Positions 3,613 through 30,407 of a stretch of DNA of 64,000 nucleotides are shown piece after piece. The stretch is from assembly GCF_004331915.1 (NCBI RefSeq), contig NZ_CP036528.1, positions 2,828,097 to 2,892,096 of the forward strand, read 5' to 3'. This DNA comes from Ureibacillus thermophilus. Its GTDB lineage: Bacteria > Bacillota > Bacilli > Bacillales_A > Planococcaceae. Positions within the stretch are counted from its first letter, which is position 1. Each line of letters starts with the position of its first letter. The position numbers and the translations under genes were made by a program. The notes under the pieces were generated by a model, which saw only the letters and a list, made by a program, of their open reading frames with translations, did no database searches and had not been told where the DNA came from.

Positions 3613-6600
3613 TTACTTAATTGGTACTACCAACCCTTTAAACTTTTCATAATTCATTTTTACACCATCATCAAGGTAAATTTCAATTTGCATATCGGCC
3701 ATGTGGTGAAGTAATTCATCATAAGCTTTTAATTCATCAATTTTTTTCTCAAGGGCTTTTAGTTCTTTCTTGGCTTTTGTAATTTCTTTAGCTGAGAAAT
3801 CTCCTTCAATAATTTCTAGTAACTGAAGTTTTTCTGCTTCCATACGTGTTTGGACTTCATGTAAATAATCCGTACGGATGCGGGAAAGGGTTGTTTTATC
3901 ATAACGATGCATATAAATGAGGCAATTAAAGGCTTTTTCCTTACCTGGTGTAAATAACCAATAAATCGGCCGTTTCTTATATGTTTGAACATGATCTTTG
4001 AAGAAGTCATTTAAGAAATAACGTCGCAATGTTTCTTTTGCGGTTTCATTTGGTTTTCGTCCAATGGCATCAGCAATGAAATCCAAATTCTCTTCCAAGG
4101 TGTCTTCACTAAACGTTATTTTTACAAAATCCACAAACTTCGAGACAATATCATCTTCAAAATAAGGATCTGAAAGGATTGGCAGAATATTGTCTTCATC
4201 TGCAGGGAACGTTTTATAACGAGTTGAATCAAACTCTCCACCAGCGTAAATCAAACCTTCTTCATCAAGGGAATAACGACCGAACATACAGCCGACAGCG
4301 TAAGAGATGAAGCTCTTAATATCCCGTTCCAAATCAGCTTTTCGAATCGTTATATCTTCATCCGCTATATCTGGAGTCAATTCATCTTGTAAACCATAAA
4401 TTTCAATAAAGATTCGGTTTAGTTCTTCTTCGTTTTGTTTTAACTGATTGAATTGTTTTTCAGCAAATTGTGTCCATTGTTCAAAAGACGACTTGATTGT
4501 ATTTGAAGGGAATTTCAATAATGGGTGTTTTGAAAAATCCCAAGATGTTTCAAAAGAATCCCATTCCAATTTCGAAATAGAAACATTTTCTTTTACTAGT
4601 TCAATAATTCGTTCTTCCTTTTCTTTCTCCATTGATATTTTTATCGGTAATCTTCCAATAGTACCTGGTTGATAATTTAATGTCGGATTGATCAATGGTA
4701 AGAAATTTTGAACAATTTTCGTTGCAAGAAAACCTTGAATTTTATATAAATCCTCCATGTTATTTGTAAACAGTGATGAACCTGAATTATCAAATAAAAA
4801 TCCATTTAAAAAAAGGCGAGAACTAAAATCACCAGAACTTAATGCTGACCAAGTAATTCCTGGTTTAAAAATATAATCCAGATTATAATTATGTGATCTC
4901 ACTTTCCCGTTTTCATCAGCATAGTTTCTTATTTTTTCCCCATCATTCTCCCAGTCCACAACATAATCATTATTACCATACCATTTTCTAAATTCTCCAC
5001 CTTTATTATATGGAAACCAACGTCGTTTACTTGAAATTGCTTCTTCTCGTTTATTAGAAGAAAATTTTATATTATCAAAACTTACTTCATACCAAAATCT
5101 TAAGAATAATTCATTATTTGCAGTTGCCATCCCTAATCGTGGTTCAGCAACTTCTGAAATTGAAGGGTTCTCTGAAAAAATATTCAATACTTCATTAGAA
5201 ACCCAATATGCAATTGGACTTCCTGGAATTTTACTAAAATTTTCTACTGAAACAATACCATTTCTGTTTTCTTTAATTGGAAATATACTTGGCTTTTCTT
5301 CCGATTGCACATCTTTATAAGTTACTTCAGTGTAGATTCCTTTATAATTATTAATATGAATGTTTCTAAAAACAGTGGCAGAAGTACCAAATGCTATCCC
5401 CATTACCATATTATCCATATGTAATAAGGTACTTATAGTTTTCTCTTTTATTATTTTATTTCTCATTTTTTCAAAGCTAGATAAAAACATCCATGATTGC
5501 ATTGTTACCATGCTATTAAAACTTGTTTCCTTAGATAACTCGAACCCTCTTTCCATAAATGCAGCAAAAAGATCACTTTTTGAATCAGAATAGTGTTTAT
5601 CCATAAAATCCTTTAATTTTTTATTCATACCGTTGCGGCCCATATATGGTGGATTCGTACATACAACATCATATTTTTTGCTTAATAAAGCTGACTGTTT
5701 TAATAAAACTGGTAATTTTTCTTTAATTATATCTTTATTAATAATTTCTAATAGATCATTTTCTTCTATTAAATATTGTTCAAGATACTTTTCAATTTGA
5801 TGGATATTTTTAATTTCAATACTAAGTAAAGAACCATATTCTTTTGCATCATAAAAAGTTTCCTGAATTAATTTTAAGGATTCATTTACTTCAAGATTAT
5901 CTTTTGATATATCTTTAATAATCTCATCTGTTAACCATTTGCTTTCTTGAATAGCGACAATTTTAGGGGTAATTTTTTGTCTAAAAATTCTTCTCGTTTT
6001 TTCTCTTGCTTTCATCATTAGGGCAAAGGATGCTAATTGTACAGCACGCTCATCTACATCTATTCCAAACAAATTTTTTTCTAAAATCAATTGTGGAATT
6101 TCGCTTTCCATATATCCTTTTTCAAGGTACATATCATAAAATACATCAAAAGCATAGACAAGAATATGTCCACTACCACAACATGGATCAAGAAATGTAA
6201 TTTCTTCTGGATTAACATTTTTATATCGAATTTCTTCAAGTTGCTTTTTGACTTCTTCTACTTGCTCGGCTTCATCTAAATAATATTTCCATTTTGTTTT
6301 TAATTGACTATCTGGATAACTTTCCATCCAAATACGTCCCAAAGAATTTTCTATCATATATCGAACAATCCAGTTTGGAGTAAAAAGTTGAGTTGCAGCT
6401 GGAAGTTTATCTTTTGTAATTTTGATATTTTTCTTTAGATTAGCAAATATCTCATCTTTTTCTTCAGAAATATAATATTGATACAACCAGCCAATTATCT
6501 CAATATTTTTCCAATCATCTTCTGAAATTTCGTTTGTATCTGTTAGTTTTCGAAGGAAAGTATCTTTACCAAGTAATCCTTCCGGGAAAAGAATCTCCTT

Positions 6601-7130: not shown

Positions 7131-10100
7131 TTAATCGACTAACTCAATGTGTTTATTTTCTTTAATGATTTGTTTTAATTTATTGGATAGGGTATGGATA
7201 TACTTATCAACATCTTCTTCATTTCTCAATGTTTTTATAGATACTAGTTGTGAAATTTTTACTTGTTGTTTTTTCGGAGCTTGTTCAATCGCAGCAATTG
7301 GTGGTTCTACAACAGTTCCTCCATTATCCGTTTGTTTCCGCTCCCATTCCAATCTTTCTCTTTCAATATGAATAAGCATTTTTTCTTTAAAAGCAGCACT
7401 TTGGGTTATTGTTGCATCTACTTTGAAAATGTCTGTGTAATTCTCAAGGTTTGTATTTAATTCATTATAATAGTCTTCCACCCGTTGTTTTGTACTGTTT
7501 GAAACCCCATATTGATTTGCAAGTAGCGACAGTTCCTCATTATCTTCCTGAAGCTTCTTACGGGCATTTTCCTTTTTTTCTTGTAAAACAAATCCTATTT
7601 GTTGTTCCAAAATATGAATTAATTCAGGGATGTCTTTAATTTGTTTATACGGAATCGGATTTTGAAGAATCTCACGTAATTTGTTCATCGCTTCTTCTAC
7701 TTCTTGTCCAATGAGATACGCTTTATTGTCTTCAAATTTGCTGAGCGCTTTTAGTCCCTGGTCAAAAATCTCTTTTTGATTTGTACTGAAGAAGCTTTTT
7801 ATGTAAATCATATCTTCTTCCCAATCCGCTAAATCATCTTCAAACTCTTTTAGTTTTGTAAAGAAAGAAACATTATCTAATTGGTTTGTAAATTGGCCGA
7901 AGTATTCTAATCCTTTATTTAATAAGCTTAAACCAGGATATTTTCTTCCTTCATAGCGGGCTTTATACGCATTGATTTCATTAATTTGCTTTTCGATGAG
8001 TTGACGAATGTCTTTAATTAATCCGTCTTCATCATCTGCTAAATCAGTCTTATTGAAAACTTCTTTACAAACTCTTTTCGCCGTGCGAAGAAGGGCTTCG
8101 TCTACTTTTACCCTCTTTGTGATAATGGCTTTATCTGCTTCATTGATTTTTCCAAAGACGGTCATTAATTCATTTGTATCCCGTTCCGGTTCTAAATAGG
8201 CGGAGTTATAGCGAATACGAATGCGCTGCTCTTTTAATAATTTTGTCAGTATTCCGGCTATGTCTAGCTGTTTCCAGCCATAGGGTTTGCCTTGGAACCG
8301 GTCATAGATGATTTTCACTCGAACTTGTTTATTAATTTGCTCTTGTAAATCGATAAATTCATATATTTCTTTTTTTGCAAGTTCATTTGGGTCTGTGCCT
8401 AATTGTTCATCTAATGTAAATTGTTGATTATTTTCTCTTATCATTAACAATAATTGGTTAGCATCTTGTAAGTGTTCTTTAATGTAGCCCAATTTTGTAT
8501 AAACACTTTCTACTAAACGTTTCAAAGCAGCATTCATTTTTTCTTTAACAGTCGACCCTTTTACGTCTAATTTTTCACCATTTACATAGAAGGTTGCATC
8601 TTTAATTGCTTCTTCCAATAATTCGCGCACCCGTTTTCTTCTTCCACGGGCTTCAACCCGTTTATTGTTTAAAATGTTTTGAATATGCTCTGGTTGTTGA
8701 GAAGGATTTCTTTTCTTCAAATATTCTTCTATCCGCAACGCTTCTTCCATTTCTTCGACATAAGAATCACTGCCACCCAGTTTCACGATTAATTCGTCAT
8801 TACCTGATGACATCATCATTAATTCCTGTTCTGATTTATGATAATGGTCTGAAAGTACAGATAAAACTTGAACGCCAATCGAGGATGTTTGATTTCCATA
8901 ACTTTTTTCATCCATTTTTTGATTGAATGGGAATGAGTATTCTTTTGAATATGTGAATCGTTTTTCATCATATAAATCATGGAATATATAGTTCGCTAAT
9001 TCACGCTTAATAAGTTCTTCTTCAACATTTATATGTTTAATTTCACGATTTACATCTTGCTCATCATCTGTTAAGAAATTGTAGTTGTCCCCGTTTTTCT
9101 GAATAAATGCTTGTGAAATAAGTTTTCTTAACGCAACTTTAATTTTTTCTTTCAACTCCAATTTATCTTCATCAATACGAGTCACCATTAATGTTGCAAT
9201 ATTATCAATGTTTGCTGGGAGTTCATTATCTTTAATATATTTAATCAAGAACAGTACTTTTAATAAGTTTACGTTAAAAGGATCGTCTTTTAATGCTCGA
9301 TTTTCAGCCGCTTTTGCGATAACTCTGGAAATTGATGGATTCAAAAATTCTTCAATGGTATCATAAAAGGCATAGAACGGAATTAGAATCCCTTCTTCCG
9401 CATCTTTGTATTTGAGTCCTGCTTCTTTAAAGGCTGATAACATAGAACGTTCCCCTTCAGACAAATGCTTACCAGAGGAACCATGTTTACGCACTTGTTC
9501 AAACACATTTTGTAACAACTTAAATTGATATGGAACAAAAGGATATACTTCCGCAAATTCAATATCGTTTTCATATCCTCTTAAATCAGCGGTGCTTTCC
9601 TTAAAGCTGATTAGGTTTTTCAAAATAGCGCTTTTATTTGGAAAATCTGCTCTTAATTTATCGAATACATGAGGTTTCTTTTCTAAAATGCGTTTTTTAA
9701 TCACCTCATCTACCGAAATGGAAGAAAGGGAAAGTCTCGTATCAAAGCGGCCTTGGATTCTTGAGAAGTCGTCTCCTTTTACTTTAATAATCGAGTCGAT
9801 GCTTTCCTGAGAAGTCACGATAATCCATACTTTACCTGCACAATAAGTTCCTAAATCCTCTGTCACCGTTTGTAAGTTGAGCATGAGATTGCGGTTATCC
9901 CCGATATATTGCCCGATTTCATCAACAAGGAAGACTAAATGGAAGTTTGGTCCTTTACTGTCAATGTACTCTTTAACATCTTTTGCAAACTTCTCAATAC
10001 TAATTTCATAGTTGTTTACTCCATTTTCAAACCAGTTTCTTGCAGACTCTTCCGACATTCCTGTCGCTTTCACCAATGCCCCAATGACATAGTCCGCGTC

Positions 10101-20517: not shown

Positions 20518-20546
20518 ATCCACGGGGACGGTTCTCGTGACTCATT
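20518..20546. repeat. REP-like motif 1
   Basis: GATCCACGGGGACGGTTCTC followed by GTGACTCATT. CACG and CGTG can pair around the GG-rich centre. This is the type of Bacillales REP sequence associated with REP-associated tyrosine transposases. Confidence 0.8.
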
Positions 20547-20719
20547 CTGGATAAATTTTCAATAATCGACGAGGACGATTCCTTTAAAGAATAAGTGGAA
20601 GGTAAAGGGTTTTGGCTCTTTACCTTCTCGTTTAATACGAAATTAAAAACATAACCACAACATGACAATGACTTATTTGAAGTAAGTTGGATTGCGTGTT
20701 GTGGGTTTTTATGGGATGA

Positions 20720-20747
20720 ACCACGGGGACGGTTCTGGTGACTCATT
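20720..20747. repeat. REP-like motif 2
   Basis: CCACGGGGACGGTTCTGGTG followed by ACTCATTT; one base in the 3' arm differs from motif 1, which weakens the CACG/CGTG pairing. It begins a new composite repeat unit. Confidence 0.8.
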
Positions 20748-21014
20748 TTGGATAATATTTCAAGAGTTTACGAGGACTATTCCTTTCAGGAATAAGTTGA
20801 AGGTAAAGGGTTTCGGCTCTTTGCCTTCTTCTTAACTGAATACAAAATGAATCCACAACATGACATTAACTTATTTGAGGTAAGTTGAATGGCGTGTTGT
20901 GGTTTTTTTCATTTTTGGTTCTATTTTTAATAATATAAAGGAAGTGGTGTATTTTGCAAGATAAAAGTGCAGAGAATTGCAATGAAAAATACAGAGTGTT
21001 GCCACCCAATATTT

Positions 21015-21387
21015 TTACTGTTTTCTCGACAACGCATTGGCTAAACGGAAGCTCTGTCCCGTATAAGAAATAATGTGGGCGTGGTGAATCAGGCGATCCA
21101 CCAGAGCTGCCGTTAAACGTGAATCCGAAAAAATACGATTCCACTGACTAAATTCTAAATTTGACGTGATAATCAAACTCTTTTGTTCGTAAAACTCTGA
21201 AATGATTTGAAAAAGTAACTCCGCTCCTTCTTTACCAAAAGGAAGATAACCCATTTCATCCAATATCATTAAATCAATTTTCTCTAATTTATTTCGAAAT
21301 TGTTTTAATTTCCCTACATGTAGAGCCTGTTCCAATTCTTCTACTAAATGCGAAACTCGATAAAAACGCACTTCAAAACCTTGCTCA
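21015..21387 (-). pseudogene. istB: IstB (IS21-family ATPase helper), C-terminal remnant
   Basis: About 123 residues of IstB remain, including the Walker B region IDLMILDEMGYLPFG and the sensor region LIITSNLEFSQWNRIF, ending ANALSRKQ. The N-terminal half with the Walker A motif is missing: upstream of 21,388 the sequence is a REP unit. An istA remnant of an IS21 element is at 30,994-31,711, so both may come from the same family of element. Not functional. Confidence 0.88.
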
Positions 21388-21388
21388 G

Positions 21389-21417
21389 ATCCACGGGGAC
21401 GGTTCTGGTGACTCATT
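21389..21417. repeat. REP-like motif 3, at the istB break
   Basis: GATCCACGGGGACGGTTCTG followed by GTGACTCATT. It begins exactly where the reading frame of the IstB remnant loses its family sequence, so it marks a break point. Confidence 0.8.
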
Positions 21418-21525
21418 CGGTGAAGTGATGATGCTTTGCTGAACCAATGGAAGGTAAAGGGTTTCGGCTCTTTACCTTCTCTTTCAATAACAATACAAAA
21501 ACATAACCACAACATGACAATGACT

Positions 21526-21554
21526 TCCACGGGGACGGTTCTCGTGACTCATTT
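21526..21554. repeat. REP-like motif 4
   Basis: TCCACGGGGACGGTTCTCGT followed by GACTCATTT. It cuts into the CCACAACATG hairpin of the preceding unit after TGACT, leaving that hairpin without its second arm. Confidence 0.8.
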
Positions 21555-21709
21555 TGGATAAAATTTCAAGAATTCATGAGGACAATTCCTTTCAGGAATA
21601 AACGGAAGGTAAAGGGTTTTGGCTCTTTCCCTTCTCGTTTAATACGAAATTAAAAACATAACCACAACATGATAATGACTTTGAAGTAAGTAGGTGTCGT
21701 GTAGCTGAC

Positions 21710-22197
21710 GAATATGACAATATCGATGTAGAAGTTGAAATACCGTCATAGTAATTGAGCATCCTTTAAGGGTGCTTTTTTTAATCTCAGTCATTTGATT
21801 TTATGTGACAATCACTTCCTTTCATTAAAAGAGAGAGGTTATGTGTAAGAAAATAAAAACGTAAATAAAGTCGGTAATAGCCTTAATTTCAATTGAATTA
21901 CAGAAAGTGGGGTGAAATATATCTATAGTCGATGAAAAGCGTCTCTCAAACGTTTTAAAGAAGAAGTTGGGATGCTGTGTTCCAATTAGTGTTCCATTTT
22001 GAATGAACATCAACATCCCAAATATCGTCATTCAACTAAAAAATAGTATCCTTAAACTTTAGGGGATTAGGGATACGTTTTTTTATGGATGGATGAACCA
22101 TTACAGAGGGTTTTATAAAAGTATTTTCTTTTTTTATGAAACTATAAATAGATTTACTACGTATTATTAATCAAACAAAGAATAGGTGGTGATCTTA
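21710..22197. other. Non-coding stretch with two terminator-like hairpins
   Basis: No supported gene. GAGCATCCTTTAAGGGTGCT followed by T residues (about 21,757-21,783) and GTATCCTTAAACTTTAGGGG...AGGGATAC followed by T residues (about 22,046-22,084) are both rightward terminator-like. The rest looks like decayed mobile-element DNA. Confidence 0.45.
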
Positions 22198-22392
22198 ATG
22201 AGTTTAGAATTATTCGAAACAATTTTAGAAAAAATGAATACTGAGGGTATCGATAAAACAATGGAATGGGCATCGGAACAACTTAATATGGATAAATCAA
22301 ATTTTGATAACCTATTTCAGTTGTTTGCACAAAATCCAACAATGAGTGATAAAGATTTAAATTTACTAAAAAATTTACTTGAACAAAAATAA
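22198..22392 (+). CDS. Hypothetical small protein of 64 residues
   Basis: I do not recognise this protein. It is short, acidic and helical (MSLELFETILEKMNTEGIDK, then LNLLKNLLEQK at the C-terminus). GGTGGTGATC lies suitably before the ATG at 22,198; an in-frame TTG/GTG further upstream is less likely. It has no membrane segment. Isolated between repeats, it may be a cargo gene of the transposon. Confidence 0.5.
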   Translation: MSLELFETILEKMNTEGIDKTMEWASEQLNMDKSNFDNLFQLFAQNPTMSDKDLNLLKNLLEQK

Positions 22393-22479
22393 TCAGTCTA
22401 CGGATATGGATTAACGGGGAAGGTTCTTAAAGAGGACAATCGTGATTGCAGCCAATGAAATGTACCACCTCTGCCATCT

Positions 22480-22541
22480 ATTTTACCGTCAAATGACAAC
22501 AAGTGTACCAGCAAACGACAAGTAGTTTACCATTACCCAAA
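22480..22541. mobile_element. IS21-like terminus remnant
   Basis: The words TTTACCGTCAAATGACAAC, GTGTACCAGCAAACGACAAG and TAGTTTACC follow each other, resembling the multiple short direct repeats at IS21-family ends. The neighbourhood also contains an istB remnant, which supports the reading. No intact element is attached. Confidence 0.45.
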
Positions 22542-22572
22542 GAATGGGGAAGGCTGTAGATTATTAAACTCA

Positions 22573-22679
22573 CAACTTTACACCGAGTGCGGGCATGATA
22601 GCCTTGGCGGGACAAGCCAGCATGTGTTGCTGGTTTCCTGGCTTGGGACTCATGCCCGTGGAGGCTCGGTGTCAAGTTG
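22573..22679. other. Strongly structured 107-base element of unknown nature
   Basis: Nested perfect arms are visible: CAACTT/AAGTTG outermost, CACCGAG/CTCGGTG, GGGCATGA/TCATGCCC, and CAAGCC/GGCTTG with an inner CCAGCA/TGCTGG around TGTGT. Such a multi-bulge stem would fold stably as RNA on either strand. It may be an RNA of a mobile element, a terminal structure of an IS, or an independent small RNA. I do not recognise a family. Confidence 0.5.
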
Positions 22680-22749
22680 TTAACCAACACATATCGCTTT
22701 ATGAATATACTGCTAAAAAGAGATCTTTCCCCAGCTAGCACGCCATCTG

Positions 22750-22778
22750 ATCCACGGGGACGGTTCTCGTGACTCATT
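22750..22778. repeat. REP-like motif 5
   Basis: GATCCACGGGGACGGTTCTC followed by GTGACTCATT, lying at the edge of the structured element and IS21-end remnant around 22,480-22,680. Confidence 0.8.
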
Positions 22779-23095
22779 TTGGATAATTTTTCAAGTATTT
22801 CTCAATATTTAAAATCCTTTGTATAAGAAAAATCTTGTACAAAGGATTTTTCTATTTTCATCCCCAAAACACCTCGAAATATTTTTTTCAATTCTTTTGA
22901 AAATATAGGATTGGTCGTTGGTTAACACTCCTTTTAGGAAAAATAGACTAGTTAAAAAAGTGATTTTGAATAGCCACTTTCCAAGCAAAATCTTATTTTG
23001 AATGGTTGAAGAAATTGGAAGTATGTTGCGGTATTTTTTATTATTTCCTATTATAGAAGAAATATATCACTAACGAAAATAAGTGTGGTGATCCT

Positions 23096-23437
23096 ATGCC
23101 TCGCAAGGCGAGATCAATGAGTAAAACAGGGATTTATCACGTGATGTTGAGGGGCGCAAATCGGCAGGAAATTTTTCATGATGATGAAGATCGGTTAAAG
23201 TTTTTAGAAATCCTTACAAAATATAAGAAAAAAGTAGAAATGAAAGTGTATGCCTGGTGTTTGATGAATAATCACGTGCATTTGCTCATAAGGGAGGGAA
23301 ATGAAAGACTATCTGTCACAATGAAGCGAATCGGTGTGAGTTACGTTCAATATTATCATTGGAAGTACTTCACAACAGGTCATCTATTTCAAGATCGATT
23401 TAAAAGTGAAAATGTCGAAACGAAACACTATTTATAA
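23096..23437 (+). pseudogene. REP-associated tyrosine transposase (RAYT, Y1/IS200-like), 3'-truncated
   Basis: The 113-residue frame begins MPRKARSMSKTGIYHVMLRG and contains the metal-binding HUH-type motif NNHVHLLIR of Y1 transposases, which also carries the NNHVHLL signature of TnpA-REP proteins. Family members are usually 150-250 residues; here the sequence ends at GHLFQDRFKSENVETKHYL and a REP motif follows at once, so the C-terminal part, which includes the region of the nucleophilic Tyr, is lost or absent. A GTGGTG binding site precedes the ATG. It is probably the source of the REP field around it, but no longer complete. Confidence 0.8.
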
Positions 23438-23466
23438 GATCCACGGGGACGGTTCTCGTGACTCAT
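23438..23466. repeat. REP-like motif 6, truncating the RAYT gene
   Basis: GATCCACGGGGACGGTTCTC followed by GTGACTCATT. It starts at the stop codon of the shortened REP-associated transposase gene, so the REP has landed in, or replaced the end of, its own family's transposase. Confidence 0.82.
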
Positions 23467-24020: not shown

Positions 24021-24272
24021 ATGGATCAATTTGAAATGCTTAAAAAAAGAGCGAGAGAAAATGCTTTTGTTGCTAAGTATTTGGATAGCCCTGAAAGTGC
24101 ATTGGGGAAAGATATCATAAAATTGCGTATAACAAATAGATTAACGCAACAAGAATTAGCCAAAATCGCCAAAACTACTCAAAAAACAATCTCTAGAATT
24201 GAAGCTGGGGATCCTGGAATAGAAATAGACATATATAATAAAGTTTTAAAAAAATTAAGGAATTTAAAATAA
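24021..24272 (+). CDS. XRE-family helix-turn-helix protein
   Basis: The 83-residue protein has an XRE/Cro DNA-binding domain in its C-terminal half: RLTQQELAKIAKTTQKTISR is the helix-turn-helix, followed by EAGDPGIEIDIYNKVLKKL. The N-terminal ~35 residues (MLKKRARENAFVAKYLDSPE) resemble HigA- or HipB-like antitoxins, which often carry a short extension before the HTH. No toxin gene lies next to it, so it may be an orphan antitoxin or a regulator of the transposon cargo. AAAGGGTG lies before the ATG. Confidence 0.8.
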   Translation: MDQFEMLKKRARENAFVAKYLDSPESALGKDIIKLRITNRLTQQELAKIAKTTQKTISRIEAGDPGIEIDIYNKVLKKLRNLK

Positions 24273-24520: not shown

Positions 24521-26362
24521 TTAGTGGGTTTCGTATGTTAGCCAATCAACCAATTTCCAACTACGGCTGTTTTCGGTGATTGTTAATCCGTGAATTTGAA
24601 ACGCTGAGAGGATTTCTTCTCTGTAGTTTAGCCAATGTCGATTCATGAAGTTTTTGATTGCTGTTGAGTTTGTTATTTTGCCGACTGGCTGGGGTAAAAT
24701 GATATTTTCTTTTTTAATAATTTCTACTAATTCATTTGCATACATTATCGCTTTTTCTTTTACTTTGTCGCTATCTATTACTGTTTTGCTATCAAAATGG
24801 AACGTCACTTTATTCATTCCGCATCGTTCAAAGAGACCTTTTAACTCATATAGAAAATGAACTTGCTTTGTTGCAATATAGATGTTTACCTTTTTCGTTT
24901 TTGTCTCATTCAAATTTCGGATATTGCTACGATAAATGATTTGAATCAGCTCTCTTATTACAAGTTCACGATAAATTTTTTCAATCCTCTCATCGCTAAA
25001 CCATTGTTTGACCGAATGATCATGGTTCATTTTTAAATTTAGTAGCTCTTCATCTTTTTCAAACATTGCTATAGCTGCTGCTTTGTAATAATACGGCGGA
25101 CGTAATGGCAAAGCTCCGAGGTACAGTTCCGTATATTCAGACAAATAGTTTTTACTCGATGTCGTTAGGATATTTATTTCTTTATAAATTGAACTTTCAC
25201 TGTCAATGATATTGTGTTTTGAGTAATATTCATAATCTTTCTTATAGCTCAAAAGAAACGGATTTTGATTGTTTCCACGAAGCTTTTCTAGTTCCCGAAT
25301 GATTACTTGATAGGTTTTGTCACTGCTTGACCGCGCGTAATAGGATGTATTAATATGATGATGAGTGATAATAAGTCGTTCATCATTTGTACGGTTATCT
25401 AAAGGAATAATGTTGTAATCTTGATAATGGGTGGGAGTGGCAAAAGCCGTTCCATCCATTATTAAAATTGGGCATTGCAACGTTTCATAATTTATTTTTT
25501 TACTGCATATGATCTTCTTCTCATTTTTATTTCTTTTCGATAATGAATCCTCTTGATCCATATATCCTACATTTTCTTCTCGACACAATCGAATGAACCA
25601 TCTAAGTTTATTACGAGATTCGAAGTCTATTATTTCGTAGATATTCTTTTCCGTTTTTCTCAAAAAATTAATCAAAAGTTGTTTTTCTTCTAATTCGGTA
25701 ATTTCTGAAAGGATTGGTTTTCCCGTAGTCGGTCCATTTTCATTACTAATTTTTTGTTTAAGAAGTTTGATTATGAAGTTACGGATTTTTACTCGATCTT
25801 CGTTATTATAAACTTTCCCATTGGCATCCAACCACTCATTAATCCATTGGCAATCATCAGTAACCTGATAAATAAAACTATCAATCATCTCTGGCATTTC
25901 ATCGACAATCACTTTTCGTTTTTTACCTCGCCATGTTGTGAAAAGATTGATATTTTCTTTTCTAAAATGTTCAATTGCAATTTCTTTAAAGCGTGCGTGA
26001 GTAATAATAACGATTTGGCTTTGTTTTATTTTTTCTCTTACTTCACTTAAGTTTTCGTGTGATACATAAAGCACTTTATTTTCTTCCAACGGTAAAATTT
26101 TATTAAGTGCTTTCATGTGACTAATTTCTTTGACTACAAAGAGAAAACCATTATATTTCAGTTTATCATGTAAAATTTGATTACCCAGTAAAGCTAATGC
26201 AGTTGTTTTTCCATGCCCAGGATAGGCAAGTAATACGTTATTGTTTGCGTAGTTCAAAAAGTTGTTTATATAGTCTAGAAGTACATTATAAATGTCTTTA
26301 ACAGCTTCTAACTGAATAGTTGATAAATAATCTTTTGGTAATCTATTTAAAGAAGAATTCAT
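24521..26362 (-). CDS. P-loop ATPase or helicase-like protein of unknown function
   Basis: I do not recognise this 613-residue protein, but it has clear nucleotide-binding motifs: Walker A AYPGHGKTT at residues 46-54, Walker B VIVDEMPEM at about 151-159, and CPILIMDGTAFATPTHY near residue 300, which could be a helicase motif III. The layout resembles a degenerate superfamily 1/2 helicase whose second RecA-like domain starts around KVNIYIATKQ. No membrane segment or zinc motif is obvious. GGAGGC lies before the ATG. Upstream is an unusual array of paired repeats (26,379-27,240) that looks specific to this locus. A phage-defence, plasmid-replication or transposition role is possible; the sequence does not decide. 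Confidence 0.75.
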   Translation of the reverse strand: MNSSLNRLPKDYLSTIQLEAVKDIYNVLLDYINNFLNYANNNVLLAYPGHGKTTALALLGNQILHDKLKYNGFLFVVKEISHMKALNKILPLEENKVLYVSHENLSEVREKIKQSQIVIITHARFKEIAIEHFRKENINLFTTWRGKKRKVIVDEMPEMIDSFIYQVTDDCQWINEWLDANGKVYNNEDRVKIRNFIIKLLKQKISNENGPTTGKPILSEITELEEKQLLINFLRKTEKNIYEIIDFESRNKLRWFIRLCREENVGYMDQEDSLSKRNKNEKKIICSKKINYETLQCPILIMDGTAFATPTHYQDYNIIPLDNRTNDERLIITHHHINTSYYARSSSDKTYQVIIRELEKLRGNNQNPFLLSYKKDYEYYSKHNIIDSESSIYKEINILTTSSKNYLSEYTELYLGALPLRPPYYYKAAAIAMFEKDEELLNLKMNHDHSVKQWFSDERIEKIYRELVIRELIQIIYRSNIRNLNETKTKKVNIYIATKQVHFLYELKGLFERCGMNKVTFHFDSKTVIDSDKVKEKAIMYANELVEIIKKENIILPQPVGKITNSTAIKNFMNRHWLNYREEILSAFQIHGLTITENSRSWKLVDWLTYETH

Positions 26363-26378
26363 AGTATAGCCTCCTTTA

Positions 26379-27240
26379 ACAGTAAATCAAATATTAAGAA
26401 AGTGTGATATGTTAAAACATACATGATTTTTGGTTGCGGAGCGTATAACTAATTGTATAGCACAGCACCTATTTTGTACGTATGCCTAAATTCCTCAGCA
26501 ACCAAATATATAATACTAGTTTAAACAAATGAATAAAGTTAATTGGATTGTTTAGTGCAAGAGATTACTACTTTAAGTGAATCACAAACTCTTATATATA
26601 AAGAAAAATGATTCACTTATTAAAGTTAAATGATAAATTTGATTGCGGATAGTATAGCCAAATGTTTTGAACTGCATCTATTTTGTTCGCTTCACCAGTT
26701 TTTTTGGCAACCAAATATAATACACTAAGTTTAGGAAACCAATAGCATTTTCTTGATTGTTCACATGTAAGAAATTATTAAAAATGAATCACAGACTTTA
26801 TATATTAAGAAATGGTGATTCACCTTTAAAATCTAGTTAGTTGAATTGACTGCAGTAGTTAAATGCTAAGTATGTTGCAATGCATTTGTTATATTCGATT
26901 CACTTATTTTTTTCGACAGCCAAATAGAGAATTAAGTGAATCACAGACCCTTAATATATTAAGAAAAAGTGATTTACTTTTAAAACTTAGTTATTTTAAT
27001 TGGCTGCGAAAGTATGATGCCATGTGTATAGCTCCAGCCATATTGTTCGTTTCCCTAATGTCTTCGGCAGCCAATAGAGTACATAAGGATTATTGAACAG
27101 CTAATGTGAAATGACTAATTAAGTGTAAGCGTTAATAATTAGAGTGAATCATAAATTCTTATATATTAAGAAATCGTGATTTACTTTTTCCATTTATGCA
27201 GTACATTGGTTGCAGCTTGTCCTTCAGATGTTTTGATTAA
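26379..27240. repeat. Tandem array of two alternating hairpin repeats (A and B) upstream of the ATPase gene
   Basis: Two diverged units alternate. Unit A (about 40-48 bases) is AGTGAATCAC...TTATATATTAAGAAA...TGATTCACTT, at about 26,379 (partial), 26,574, 26,786, 26,932 and 27,140. Unit B (about 75-85 bases) starts TTGGTTGC and ends GCAACCAA, with a conserved inner TATTTTGTTCG-like core, at about 26,431, 26,638, 26,843, 26,997 and 27,207 (cut by ISL3). The B stem changes on both sides together: GTTGC/GCAAC in the first copy and GCTGC/GCAGC in the fourth. Such paired change argues that base pairing is under selection. Could be an RNA array, operators or replication iterons. Confidence 0.8.
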
Positions 27241-28279
27241 GGTTACATTCGTCTAAGTGCATCAACTAATTCTTTTGCACTTGGATCAATATAAATATCT
27301 TTCAGAAGGAGCTTCCAGTATGTTTTCAATTTATTGTAATTCTTTTTATCCCGATTCATGACGTTGATGCGCGTTTTGTTTAAAGCTCTGCTAAATAGTT
27401 GGAGGATATGGAATTTGTCGAGTACGATTTCCGCTTTAGGGAAAACTTCTTGGATTAAGGAAATATAAGGGCTGTACATATCGATGACAATCGTTTTTAC
27501 CGCATCTCTCGCCTTCTTGGAATACCGTAAGAAATCTTTGAGGACAGGTAATCTCCGGTCCTCCACGATATCCACAATCTCCCCCGTTTCAGAGTCGCAG
27601 AAAATAAAGGACATCGCTCCAGCTGCGGATTTCACTGATTTAAACTCATCAAAACACAAATGCTTTGGAAGGTAGTGAACATTTGGTTGATAGTAGATAT
27701 AAAAGCTGTCAATGACTCGACTGACAGTGGCATGAGAAACATGATGTTTCATCGCAATATCTTTTTCGGAGATTTTATCTTTGGCGTTAAAAGCAATTGA
27801 TACTTTGGTATTGTTGGAAATGCAACAGTTTTTAGCCACGACGCTCGTTTTTCAAGTAAACGTGGCATGACCATGTTTACAGAAATAACGCTGTTTACGC
27901 AATTTTAAATAGGTATGAAAACCTGAAACACTAGGCATTTTAATGAGAGACGTTTTAAAACCGTGTTTAATGATTTGATCATCGAAGACATGTCCACAAG
28001 CATAGCACGCTTTTGGTTGGTAAGTGAATTGTCCATAAAAGACTTTTGATTGGACCCCTTTAATGAGTTCTTCTGCACAAAAATTTTCATCAAATGTGAT
28101 ATTTTTATCTTTTATATTGAGTAGGTTTCGTATAGAATGATGGTGAGACATGTGACACAACTCCTTGTAAATGTGGTTTTGGTCGATTACATTTTACCAG
28201 AGTTTGTCACATGTCTCATTTTTTTGTTCAAAAAAATTGGTGCTGGTTTATACTCACCAACACCAAATATTATAGAGCC
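27241..28279 (-). mobile_element. ISL3-family element, partial
   Basis: The right end reads, on the minus strand, GGCTCTATAATATTTGGTGT, an ISL3-type terminus. The transposase is frameshifted and its 3' part is missing at the left, where the sequence meets the last B repeat of the array near 27,240. No left terminus is found, so this is an inactive remnant that has removed the end of the repeat array. Confidence 0.8.
27243..28160 (-). pseudogene. ISL3-family transposase, frameshifted and 3'-truncated
   Basis: Two frames together give an ISL3 transposase: 27,852-28,160 encodes the N-terminal zinc-binding part (PKACYACGHVFDDQIIKHG, then QRYFCKHGHATF) and 27,243-27,839 encodes the central helix-turn-helix and the DDE domain start (HLCFDEFKSVKSAAGAMSF, VKTIVIDMYSPYISLIQ, VLDKFHILQLFSRALN). 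A shift around 27,840-27,852 separates them. The C-terminal third is missing. DEFK and IDMYSPY are ISL3 hallmarks. Confidence 0.88.
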
Positions 28280-28503: not shown

Positions 28504-28839
28504 ATGTGTAAAACGATCAAAACGAAAGTAACGGTGGAGCGGATTGGGATTGTTTATGGGGAAAATCGAGCGACGTTACGAGTTTGCCAGGATGCTTATT
28601 TGCATGATTATTTGTTGCCTGGAACGGATCACAATGGAAAGAAAGTTGCTGTCGGTTTGTTTGATAAAACGATTGAGCCGTTAAAAGATATGATTCATGT
28701 AAAAATCGAGAATGACGAGAATGATCGGCTGTTTTCTTATTTATTTGAGGCGTATAAGCATGAGAAAGAGGTGGTGGTGTATTTAGAAAAGAGGAAAAAT
28801 GGCATGTATGTTGTCGTCGGATTGGAGTTTTATTCATGA
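28504..28839 (+). CDS. 111-residue partner of the SIR2-family protein, unknown
   Basis: I do not recognise this protein (MCKTIKTKVTVERIGIVYGE). It has no membrane segment, a mixed alpha/beta pattern, and two short hydrophobic strands near the end (KEVVVYLEKR, MYVVVGLEFY). The ATG at 28,504 is seven bases after AAAGGAG. Its stop overlaps the start of the SIR2 gene by four bases (ATGA), so the two are translated together and probably act together, for example as sensor, inhibitor or specificity subunit. GC content rises from here, marking the two-gene unit as a separate import. Confidence 0.7.
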   Translation: MCKTIKTKVTVERIGIVYGENRATLRVCQDAYLHDYLLPGTDHNGKKVAVGLFDKTIEPLKDMIHVKIENDENDRLFSYLFEAYKHEKEVVVYLEKRKNGMYVVVGLEFYS

Positions 28840-30407
28840 AACAGTTGAAATCGTTTCAACCGTTTTGGCCTGAAACAGTCATCTTTTGGGGAGCTGGAGC
28901 GACGGCTAGTTTAGGGATCAAGACGACAGAACAGCTGGCTCGAGTCATTTTTCGTTTGGCAGGGATTAATGGGAAGCGGCAAGTGCAGCAACGAGTGAAA
29001 GACGAGTTTCCCCAAGCGGATAAACGGGTGCGCGCGGAGCTGGCAGCGCTGCTCGTTTTGCTTGGGGAAGATGGCGATCGGGACGAAGCGATGCGAACAT
29101 TACGGTTTTCCAAGAAGCGGGTAAGCGAGCTTAAACGGCTGTACAACTGGACGGTGACCCGAGAAGTGATGCGGCGCTGTCCTGGCGTTCATAATGGGCA
29201 TTTTTCGTTGCAAGATTGTTATAATTTGATCGATCTTCATATAAAAAGCGGACAAGGGTTTGCGGTAAACGGCCGCTTTATTCAGCCGGAGGAGTTGATC
29301 GTGGCGCGCCGTACGTTAAACATGTTGATCGGTATTGTACATGCGCTCGATTATCGCGCGATGTTGCGGCATCGCAGAAACGAAATCTGCCAATATTTCC
29401 AGTTTGCCTACATTTTAGGGCAGCTGATGCAACAAGAAGGGAAGGAACGGGCGAGACATAATGTTCCGTTGACAGAGCGCCAATTTTATTTGTTCAGTTA
29501 CGCTGTCATCAGCATGAACTGGGATCCGTTGCTGCTATGGTTTCTTTTTAACGCGCATCGGGAGTTAAATCATTCGTACTCAGCGGTTCCGATCGATCGG
29601 TTTGGCAATCGGCTGAAACTGTTTCACGATTTGGCGCATTTTATGGCGGTGAGACGAATCGATGGAAAAAAACCGGCTCCATGGTTTCCGTTTAATGAGA
29701 CAGTCGTTCAACGTTTGAATGATCCAGAGTACAATCCTGGTAGGAGAGTACGCGTTGGGAAATTTTATTTTCCGCACGGGTGCTACGGATTTCGTGAATG
29801 TCCAAACTGTGGAAAATTGACGGTGTATTTAGGGGATGAGTGGAGCGTTTATTCCGAGACGTTGTTTCCGCCGATGTTGTTGCCGTCGTTGTCGTACGGT
29901 CGTCCGCGTTCGGAGGAAGAAATGGCCGCTCACCGAGAAGGGATTTTTGATGCGATTCAATGCGTACATTGCGGGCAAATGACCGAATCGCATCATACCG
30001 CAATGATTATGCAAACGCAGTTGAAAGAGCAACATCCGCCGTTTTTGGAAGAAATTCAGCGTGATATGAAAGTGGCGATTGAAAACGCGAAGCATATCAT
30101 TTTACTCGGCTATTCACTTCCGGAGGACGATTTCTTATATCGTACCATTTTGTCAGCGCGCAAAAAAGATGGGACAGTGAAATGCTCAATCGTCAACTTT
30201 CAACGCGGTTTACCGGACAAATGGCTCGATTGTGGGCAGTGGAAAACATACAAGTTCGATCATTCCCTCAACAGCTTATGCGAACGAGTAAGCAATATTT
30301 TTGGCGAAGAAAACGTCCGATTGTACGGAGCCGGAGTGCCAGCGGTGTTTCTTCGTCACGGACGCGCTTCTGTAGAAAAAGTGAAACAGTTGCTTGAGTG
30401 GAAGTGA
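28836..30407 (+). CDS. SIR2-family NAD-binding protein, candidate defence effector
   Basis: This 523-residue protein shows the sirtuin-fold landmarks in order: GAGATASLG at residues 19-27 (NAD loop), MNWDP at 227-231 (the family's N-x-D), FPHG at 312-315 (position of the catalytic His), two CxxC pairs at 322-325 and 376-379 (zinc module), and LLGYSLPEDD at 423-432. About 200 extra residues lie between the NAD loop and NWD. SIR2-like proteins of this size act in bacterial immunity as NAD-degrading effectors; deacylation is less likely. It is coupled to the 111-residue gene upstream. GC is well above its neighbours. Confidence 0.85.
   Translation: MKQLKSFQPFWPETVIFWGAGATASLGIKTTEQLARVIFRLAGINGKRQVQQRVKDEFPQADKRVRAELAALLVLLGEDGDRDEAMRTLRFSKKRVSELKRLYNWTVTREVMRRCPGVHNGHFSLQDCYNLIDLHIKSGQGFAVNGRFIQPEELIVARRTLNMLIGIVHALDYRAMLRHRRNEICQYFQFAYILGQLMQQEGKERARHNVPLTERQFYLFSYAVISMNWDPLLLWFLFNAHRELNHSYSAVPIDRFGNRLKLFHDLAHFMAVRRIDGKKPAPWFPFNETVVQRLNDPEYNPGRRVRVGKFYFPHGCYGFRECPNCGKLTVYLGDEWSVYSETLFPPMLLPSLSYGRPRSEEEMAAHREGIFDAIQCVHCGQMTESHHTAMIMQTQLKEQHPPFLEEIQRDMKVAIENAKHIILLGYSLPEDDFLYRTILSARKKDGTVKCSIVNFQRGLPDKWLDCGQWKTYKFDHSLNSLCERVSNIFGEENVRLYGAGVPAVFLRHGRASVEKVKQLLEWK

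Follow-up and report, generated by a model that had tools for sequence, protein, structure and literature searches.

The DinG/XPD-type helicases of superfamily 2 (SF2) include E. coli DinG, S. aureus DinG, CasDinG and archaeal XPD. According to the available part of a review on the DinG family (PMC11981726), motif I and the DE-box are separated by an iron-sulphur (FeS) domain with four cysteines (or three), with named exceptions, and the ten subgroups named there include an FeS-less one, 'sDinG', which is reported from cyanobacterial orders and, unlike the protein considered here, has no conserved ATP-binding residues. In a 64,000-nucleotide (nt) stretch of the Ureibacillus thermophilus genome (contig NZ_CP036528.1; hereinafter, the window), a minus-strand open reading frame (ORF) at positions 24521-26362 encodes a 613-amino-acid (aa) ATPase that is predicted to be a DinG/XPD-type SF2 helicase, and this ORF is preceded by an array of five diverged composite repeats (26374 to about 27240).

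Two other kinds of described loci share parts of this layout. As is generally known, iteron plasmid replicons carry tandem direct repeats with inverted boxes ahead of a DNA-acting gene, and in type III toxin-antitoxin systems a single gene is immediately preceded by tandem repeats; the array of the window is likewise so placed. The locus departs from the toxin-antitoxin type in that its gene codes for a predicted helicase, not an endoribonuclease, with no match in PADLOC (for which reason a defence-system reading was also set aside), and in that its repeats are long and composite. We found no account of the array or of the helicase family in the literature consulted, including the available parts of PMC5467207, PMC8270828 and PMC11981726; one may exist in print.

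Architecture of the array

The array lies between the start of the 613-aa ORF and a remnant of an ISL3-family transposase gene (27243-27839, minus strand). On the plus strand, with each unit read as A then B, the order is A1 (degenerate), B1, A2, B2, A3, B3, A4, B4, A5 and B5 (left half only). An earlier note on this DNA had reported that two repeats alternate directly upstream of a 613-residue ATPase, and this holds: five units were located, and all are recovered by R1, a covariance model of the composite A-B unit that was built from these same five units, so that self-recovery is by construction (152.1, 148.2, 134.8, 116.3 and 85.4 bits at 26569, 26928, 26776, 26374 and 27136, respectively). 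The remaining R1 matches in the window are weak, four of them being on the reverse strand within the array. The first unit extends to the ribosome-binding site of the ORF, where A1 (26374-26420) abuts an AGGAGG read by eye just 5' of the start codon (26370-26375, minus strand); at the other end, the likeness of B5 (27206-27242) stops at the ISL3 remnant.

Pairwise identity among the five units is 62-75%, spacers included, which indicates that the array is old and diverged. The spacers between each B and the next A are ~66 nt long, and three are alike by eye in a MAFFT alignment, so the repeat is better described as a single composite of ~207 bp; this is also the period of the array, shortened to ~152 bp in the one copy that lacks the spacer (box starts 26577, 26784, 26936 and 27144). 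An array of clustered regularly interspaced short palindromic repeats (CRISPR) was considered and rejected, because it would combine near-identical short repeats with unrelated spacers, whereas here whole units diverge and the spacers resemble one another.

Each A arm is a near-palindrome, GTGAWTCAC, its own reverse complement save for the middle base. Exact copies of this box number three in the 64 kb, all within the array (chance mean 0.40; none of 100 shuffles reached three). When one mismatch is allowed, there are eight array sites forming four pairs, namely, GTGAATCAC and ATGATTCAC in A2 (26575-26618), ATGAATCAC and GTGATTCAC in A3 (26784-26823), GTGAATCAC and GTGATTTAC in A4 (26934-26979), and GTGAATCAT and GTGATTTAC in A5 (27142-27186), with the paired boxes 31, 31, 33 and 32 bp apart, respectively, or about three helical turns. 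The right arm that the earlier note gave for unit A, TGATTCAC, is present in A2 and A3, whereas A4 and A5 carry TGATTTAC instead. In the B units, the arms form genuine inverted repeats, and the sequence TTGGYTGC was observed 12 times against 3.92 expected, with six of the 12 in the array. As for the compensatory change proposed between copies of unit B, the arms of B1 (26430-26505; TTGGTTGC with GCAACCAA) and B4 (27000-27074; TTGGCTGC with GCAGCCAA) are as claimed, but B2 (26639-26714; TTGATTGC with GCAACCAA) has one uncompensated position and B3 (26846-26923; TTGACTGC with ACAGCCAA) has two within its 8-nt arms.

Conservation is distributed unevenly within the unit. The pairwise identity is highest in the A arms (0.876), followed by the A loop (0.815), the B arms (0.81), the B interior (0.60) and the A-B link (0.554); in the three full units, the A arms stand above random column sets (0.003 of resamplings), in contrast to the B arms (0.24). 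An AT-rich core, ATATATTAAGAAA, is conserved between the paired A boxes. Conserved paired boxes that flank a conserved AT-rich core, with a B interior that varies freely, are more in keeping with DNA sites bound by a protein than with RNAs that fold. The units are likely to be binding sites for a protein on double-stranded DNA, as opposed to a series of small RNAs.

Base pairing within the repeats

The earlier note had taken the stems as a sign of selection for base pairing, in RNA or in single-stranded DNA, a proposal that the controls do not bear out. The A and B arms do pair in 91.7% of 84 cells, compared with 23-44% when the partner is slid by 1-3 columns. However, the A boxes are self-reverse-complementary, so the two A arms pair with each other whatever their use, and no RNA is needed to account for this. 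The covariation proposed by the earlier note, whose absence among many aligned copies it had named as refuting, is not significant with only five units: the score was matched by 33 of 500 shuffles, and two-sided changes, found at three of 20 pairs over the five units, were equalled in 170 of 500 shuffles. One consistent two-sided change occurs in B, with T-A in B1 and B2 and C-G in B3 and B4.

Among the 84 stem pairs, the non-Watson-Crick ones comprise five G-T pairs on the plus strand, five on the minus strand and two others; hence neither strand stands out as RNA. Folding of A2-A5 and B1-B4 on both strands yields minimum energies of about -10 to -23 kcal/mol. The array contains four plain hairpins of at least 9 bp, a number that was also seen in one or more of 40 shuffles (mean 0.70). 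In Rfam, no match in the array attains the gathering score, the best of three sub-threshold matches having E 0.25, and promoter-like sites occur at the chance level (9 found, 9.4 expected). The folding, the controlled pair counts, the strand of the mismatches and the Rfam search thus do not support small structured RNAs.

The helicase-like protein

The Walker A and Walker B motifs given in the earlier note, GHGKTT and VDEMPEM, are both present in the ORF, the first as part of PGHGKTT and the second with the DE-box VDEMP in it; the protein also contains the motifs DGTA and QIIYRSNIR. Fold prediction assigns residues 1-525 to the DinG/XPD-type helicases, and in this predicted structure the two motor domains with Walker A, the DE-box and motif VI can be discerned, along with a helical insertion between the DE-box and DGTA that appears to occupy the place of the Arch domain. 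Sequence identity to the PDB entries is 8-14% among the matches listed, and the window protein differs from the known helicases by an extra C-terminal part. It also differs in having no cysteine between residues 49 and 157, that is, in the region where the FeS domain would be expected. In the protein alignment, this region is likewise devoid of cysteines in nine of 18 rows, contains one to three in the others, and contains four in none (one row, P0005, is without its N-terminus).

The only sequence matches in the PDB were to the herpes origin-binding helicase UL9 (E 0.39-0.41), confined to the Walker A region. This candidate was dropped when the fold search returned DinG/XPD; UL9 is not among the 50 listed fold matches, which excludes nothing.

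Relatives of the helicase and their neighbourhoods

Protein searches, in which the best 7,994-7,995 candidates were scored, returned at least 17 and at least 16 proteins. Among the matches listed, the closest is 98% identical (11 differences of 613) and is labelled Caldifermentibacillus hisashii; four relatives at 51-56% come from metagenome or read collections, and the rest are 25-35% identical over the full alignment. A profile search of the family sample matched nine of 261 genomes, with near-full-length proteins in the own genome, G084 and G074, a C-terminal fragment in G027, and, in five genomes, short stretches within 693-998-aa ORFs that are probably other helicases. The class sample gave six of 398 genomes (the own genome, G355, G293, G576 and G427, plus a fragment in G369), and the phylum sample one of 398, the own genome. 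Near-full-length relatives are therefore rare, being found in seven genomes, own included, across the family and class samples. Viral contigs contributed four relative loci; scans of named genomes for close relatives returned none, and neither did searches of the viral collection with other alignments.

Twelve relative loci (L001-L004 and L020-L027) were examined. In five of these (L001, L002, L003, L025 and L027), a gene for an RdRP/YonO-like RNA polymerase lies 0.3-3.4 kb from the helicase gene; the assignment comes from the Pfam RdRP family for L001 and L002 and from BLASTP likeness to these for L003 (two pieces), L025 and L027, the L025 gene itself having no RdRP Pfam match. Such a neighbourhood recalls the SP-beta-like phages with YonO, but no YonO-like gene was noticed near the helicase gene of the window, whose protein is only 28-29% identical to the relative. 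A helper of the YonO-like polymerase is a possible role for the relatives near polymerase genes. The other neighbours are diverse: a DUF3991/Toprim_2 (primase-like) gene directly downstream of the helicase gene in L024, the only one of the 12 loci with this pair; a phage tail gene in L023 and a major capsid gene in L025; a ParB_N/DNA methylase gene in L003; defence-like genes in L020, L021 and L022; and, in several loci, recombinase-like ORFs recognised by eye only.

In three loci, the non-coding stretch beside the helicase gene shows a GC-skew flip, of 1.28 in L001 (2373-3484), 1.05 in L004 (8737-9922; up to +0.93 in a 150-nt interval) and 1.11 in L027 (8236-9460), compared with 0.48-0.76 in nine other sequences. 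DnaA-box-like 9-mers number three in the L027 stretch and two in that of L001. These stretches are possibly the origin or a transcription switch of phage-like elements.

Two further features of L020 deserve mention. Sequences that encode or resemble a small protein of the AIQRFQERVT type recur around its helicase gene (5795-5852, 6185-6418 and 9331-9546), and its two tandem hairpins at 5932-6000 show a matched change, one having the arms TAGAGAC/GTCTCTA and the other TAGAGGC/GCCTCTA.

Other features of the window

Six copies of CACGGGGACGGTTCTNGTGACTCAT are present at 20521-23466, read as MSH[EQ]NRPRGS in several small ORFs; genome-wide, this sequence is found at nine places with at most two mismatches. 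The last copy in the window follows a short Y1 (REP-associated-like) transposase ORF (23096-23437), and together the repeats and this ORF look like a REP/RAYT pair, i.e. repetitive extragenic palindromes with their associated tyrosine transposase. Beyond the ISL3 remnant, a 523-aa ORF (28836-30407) has no match in Pfam (E up to 0.01) or PADLOC (E up to 0.001).

Discussion

The layout of the array, the pattern of its boxes and the surroundings of the helicase relatives (phage contexts, the helicase-Toprim pair and the skew-flip stretches in L001, L004 and L027) lead us to favour, with a probability of roughly 40%, the reading that the array comprises iteron-like origin or operator sites on which the helicase would act and which belong to a mobile element that is now stranded. 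This coincides with one of the options in the earlier note, iterons of a lost replicon. The mobile element would have been stranded among insertion sequence (IS) remnants, with the array as its cis-acting region; the GTGAWTCAC pairs would be the target of a protein of the element, either the helicase itself or an element-encoded initiator; and the helicase, whose gene lies alongside, would open or process the DNA, so that copying of the element could start. As in iteron replicons, direct repeats, here five units, lie ahead of the gene, whose initiator role is putative. We infer the origin and the replication role from the surroundings of the relatives. A bolder version, which we regard as improbable, is an undescribed kind of replicon, in which a family of Bacilli mobile elements uses an FeS-less DinG/XPD-type helicase as the initiator, acting at paired GTGAWTCAC boxes and inverted TTGGYTGC repeats.

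Several observations weigh against the mobile-element origin. The units are long and diverged for iterons. No replication-initiator domain was recognised in the protein (in Pfam, only DEAD, at 24.1 bits against a cut-off of 26; in NCBIfam, none above the cut-off), and its C-terminal 114 residues have no clear fold match. No DnaA-box-like 9-mer (at most one mismatch to TTATCCACA) occurs in 26362-27242, and there is no GC-skew flip in the array. The protein has no match in 72,556 plasmid and 50,697 phage records. The array DNA gave seven short matches to plasmids, with at most 8% covered and a best E of 0.07, and none to phages; there is thus no convincing likeness to a known plasmid origin. A role in transcription would agree equally well with the YonO-like neighbours.

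Linkage of repeats and ATPase in other genomes, the absence of which the earlier note had named as refuting its proposal, came out unfavourably at the relative loci searched. At the 12 relative loci, with proteins 25-35% identical, R1 found nothing better than E 1.5, and repeat searches revealed no array comparable to that of the window. Beside the helicase gene in nine relatives (L004, L026 and L027 left out), hairpins of at least 9 bp number 14 in 6964 bases, which is no denser than the 49 in 28519 bases of other gaps (other gaps of the window included); the array has four in 880. A high hairpin count is not special, since the L022 upstream stretch (four in 827 nt) and L020 5387-6184 (six in 798 nt) are as rich as the array. 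The R1 result and the ordinary hairpin density show that the array is no general companion of the helicase family at this level of identity. In the own genome, R1 finds only the five units and the reverse-strand matches inside the array; in the genus, five of 25 genomes, own included, gave matches with E up to 1 (best outside the own genome, E 0.19); in the family, under stricter filters, two of 261 gave matches, the own genome and G207 (E 0.002, roughly chance for 261 genomes), where a plain hairpin accounts for the match. When viral contigs were scanned for the pattern, three stretches came up, in which R1 found nothing up to E 1. Among the searched genomes, with no convincing match in the 260 other family genomes or the 12 relative loci, the array is known from this one locus.

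The array might, instead, be an operator cluster only, without an origin: the helicase gene would be controlled by a repressor or activator bound to the GTGAWTCAC pairs, perhaps the 83-aa helix-turn-helix (HTH) protein encoded at 24021-24272. The self-palindromic boxes with their regular distances of 31-33 bp, the end of the array at the ribosome-binding site and the presence of this HTH_3 gene (29 bits against a cut-off of 23) on the far side of the helicase gene are all in its favour, but the promoter-like sites are at the chance level and no exact box exists elsewhere in the window. Five composite units over ~870 bp exceed the usual need of an operator, and we consider this explanation unlikely.

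A still less likely one is that the array and the helicase gene are chance neighbours in an IS-rich zone, the array being derived from another, lost element. IS66-like, ISL3, Y1 transposase and REP-like pieces do surround the locus, and none of the 12 relative loci has the array; however, no scar is visible where it enters the region of the ribosome-binding site, and the array recurs neither elsewhere in the own genome nor in 24 other genomes of the genus nor, convincingly, in the rest of the family sample. Small structured RNAs (A, ~47 nt; B, ~77 nt) that work with the helicase, in a new RNA-guided or RNA-antitoxin type, are quite improbable: both repeat types are foldable and one B pair changes on both sides, but covariation is not significant, no strand is preferred, the B interior is poorly conserved (60%), Rfam gave sub-threshold matches only, promoter-like sites are at the chance level, and there are no copies at the relative loci.

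The layout is real and unusual, but it lacks the covariation and the linkage by which it would qualify as a new RNA system. What emerges is a group of DinG-like helicases that are devoid of the iron-sulphur site and reside in mobile elements, with an array seen once so far.

Implications

If the mobile-element reading is true, a DinG-like enzyme serves in the start of replication or transcription in one cluster of Bacilli mobile elements, rather than in repair or CRISPR work, and the array would be a testable origin. The available part of the YonO paper leaves open the question whether YonO depends on further phage factors in locating promoters (PMC5467207), and the helicase relatives beside YonO-like polymerase genes in five of the 12 loci bear on this question.
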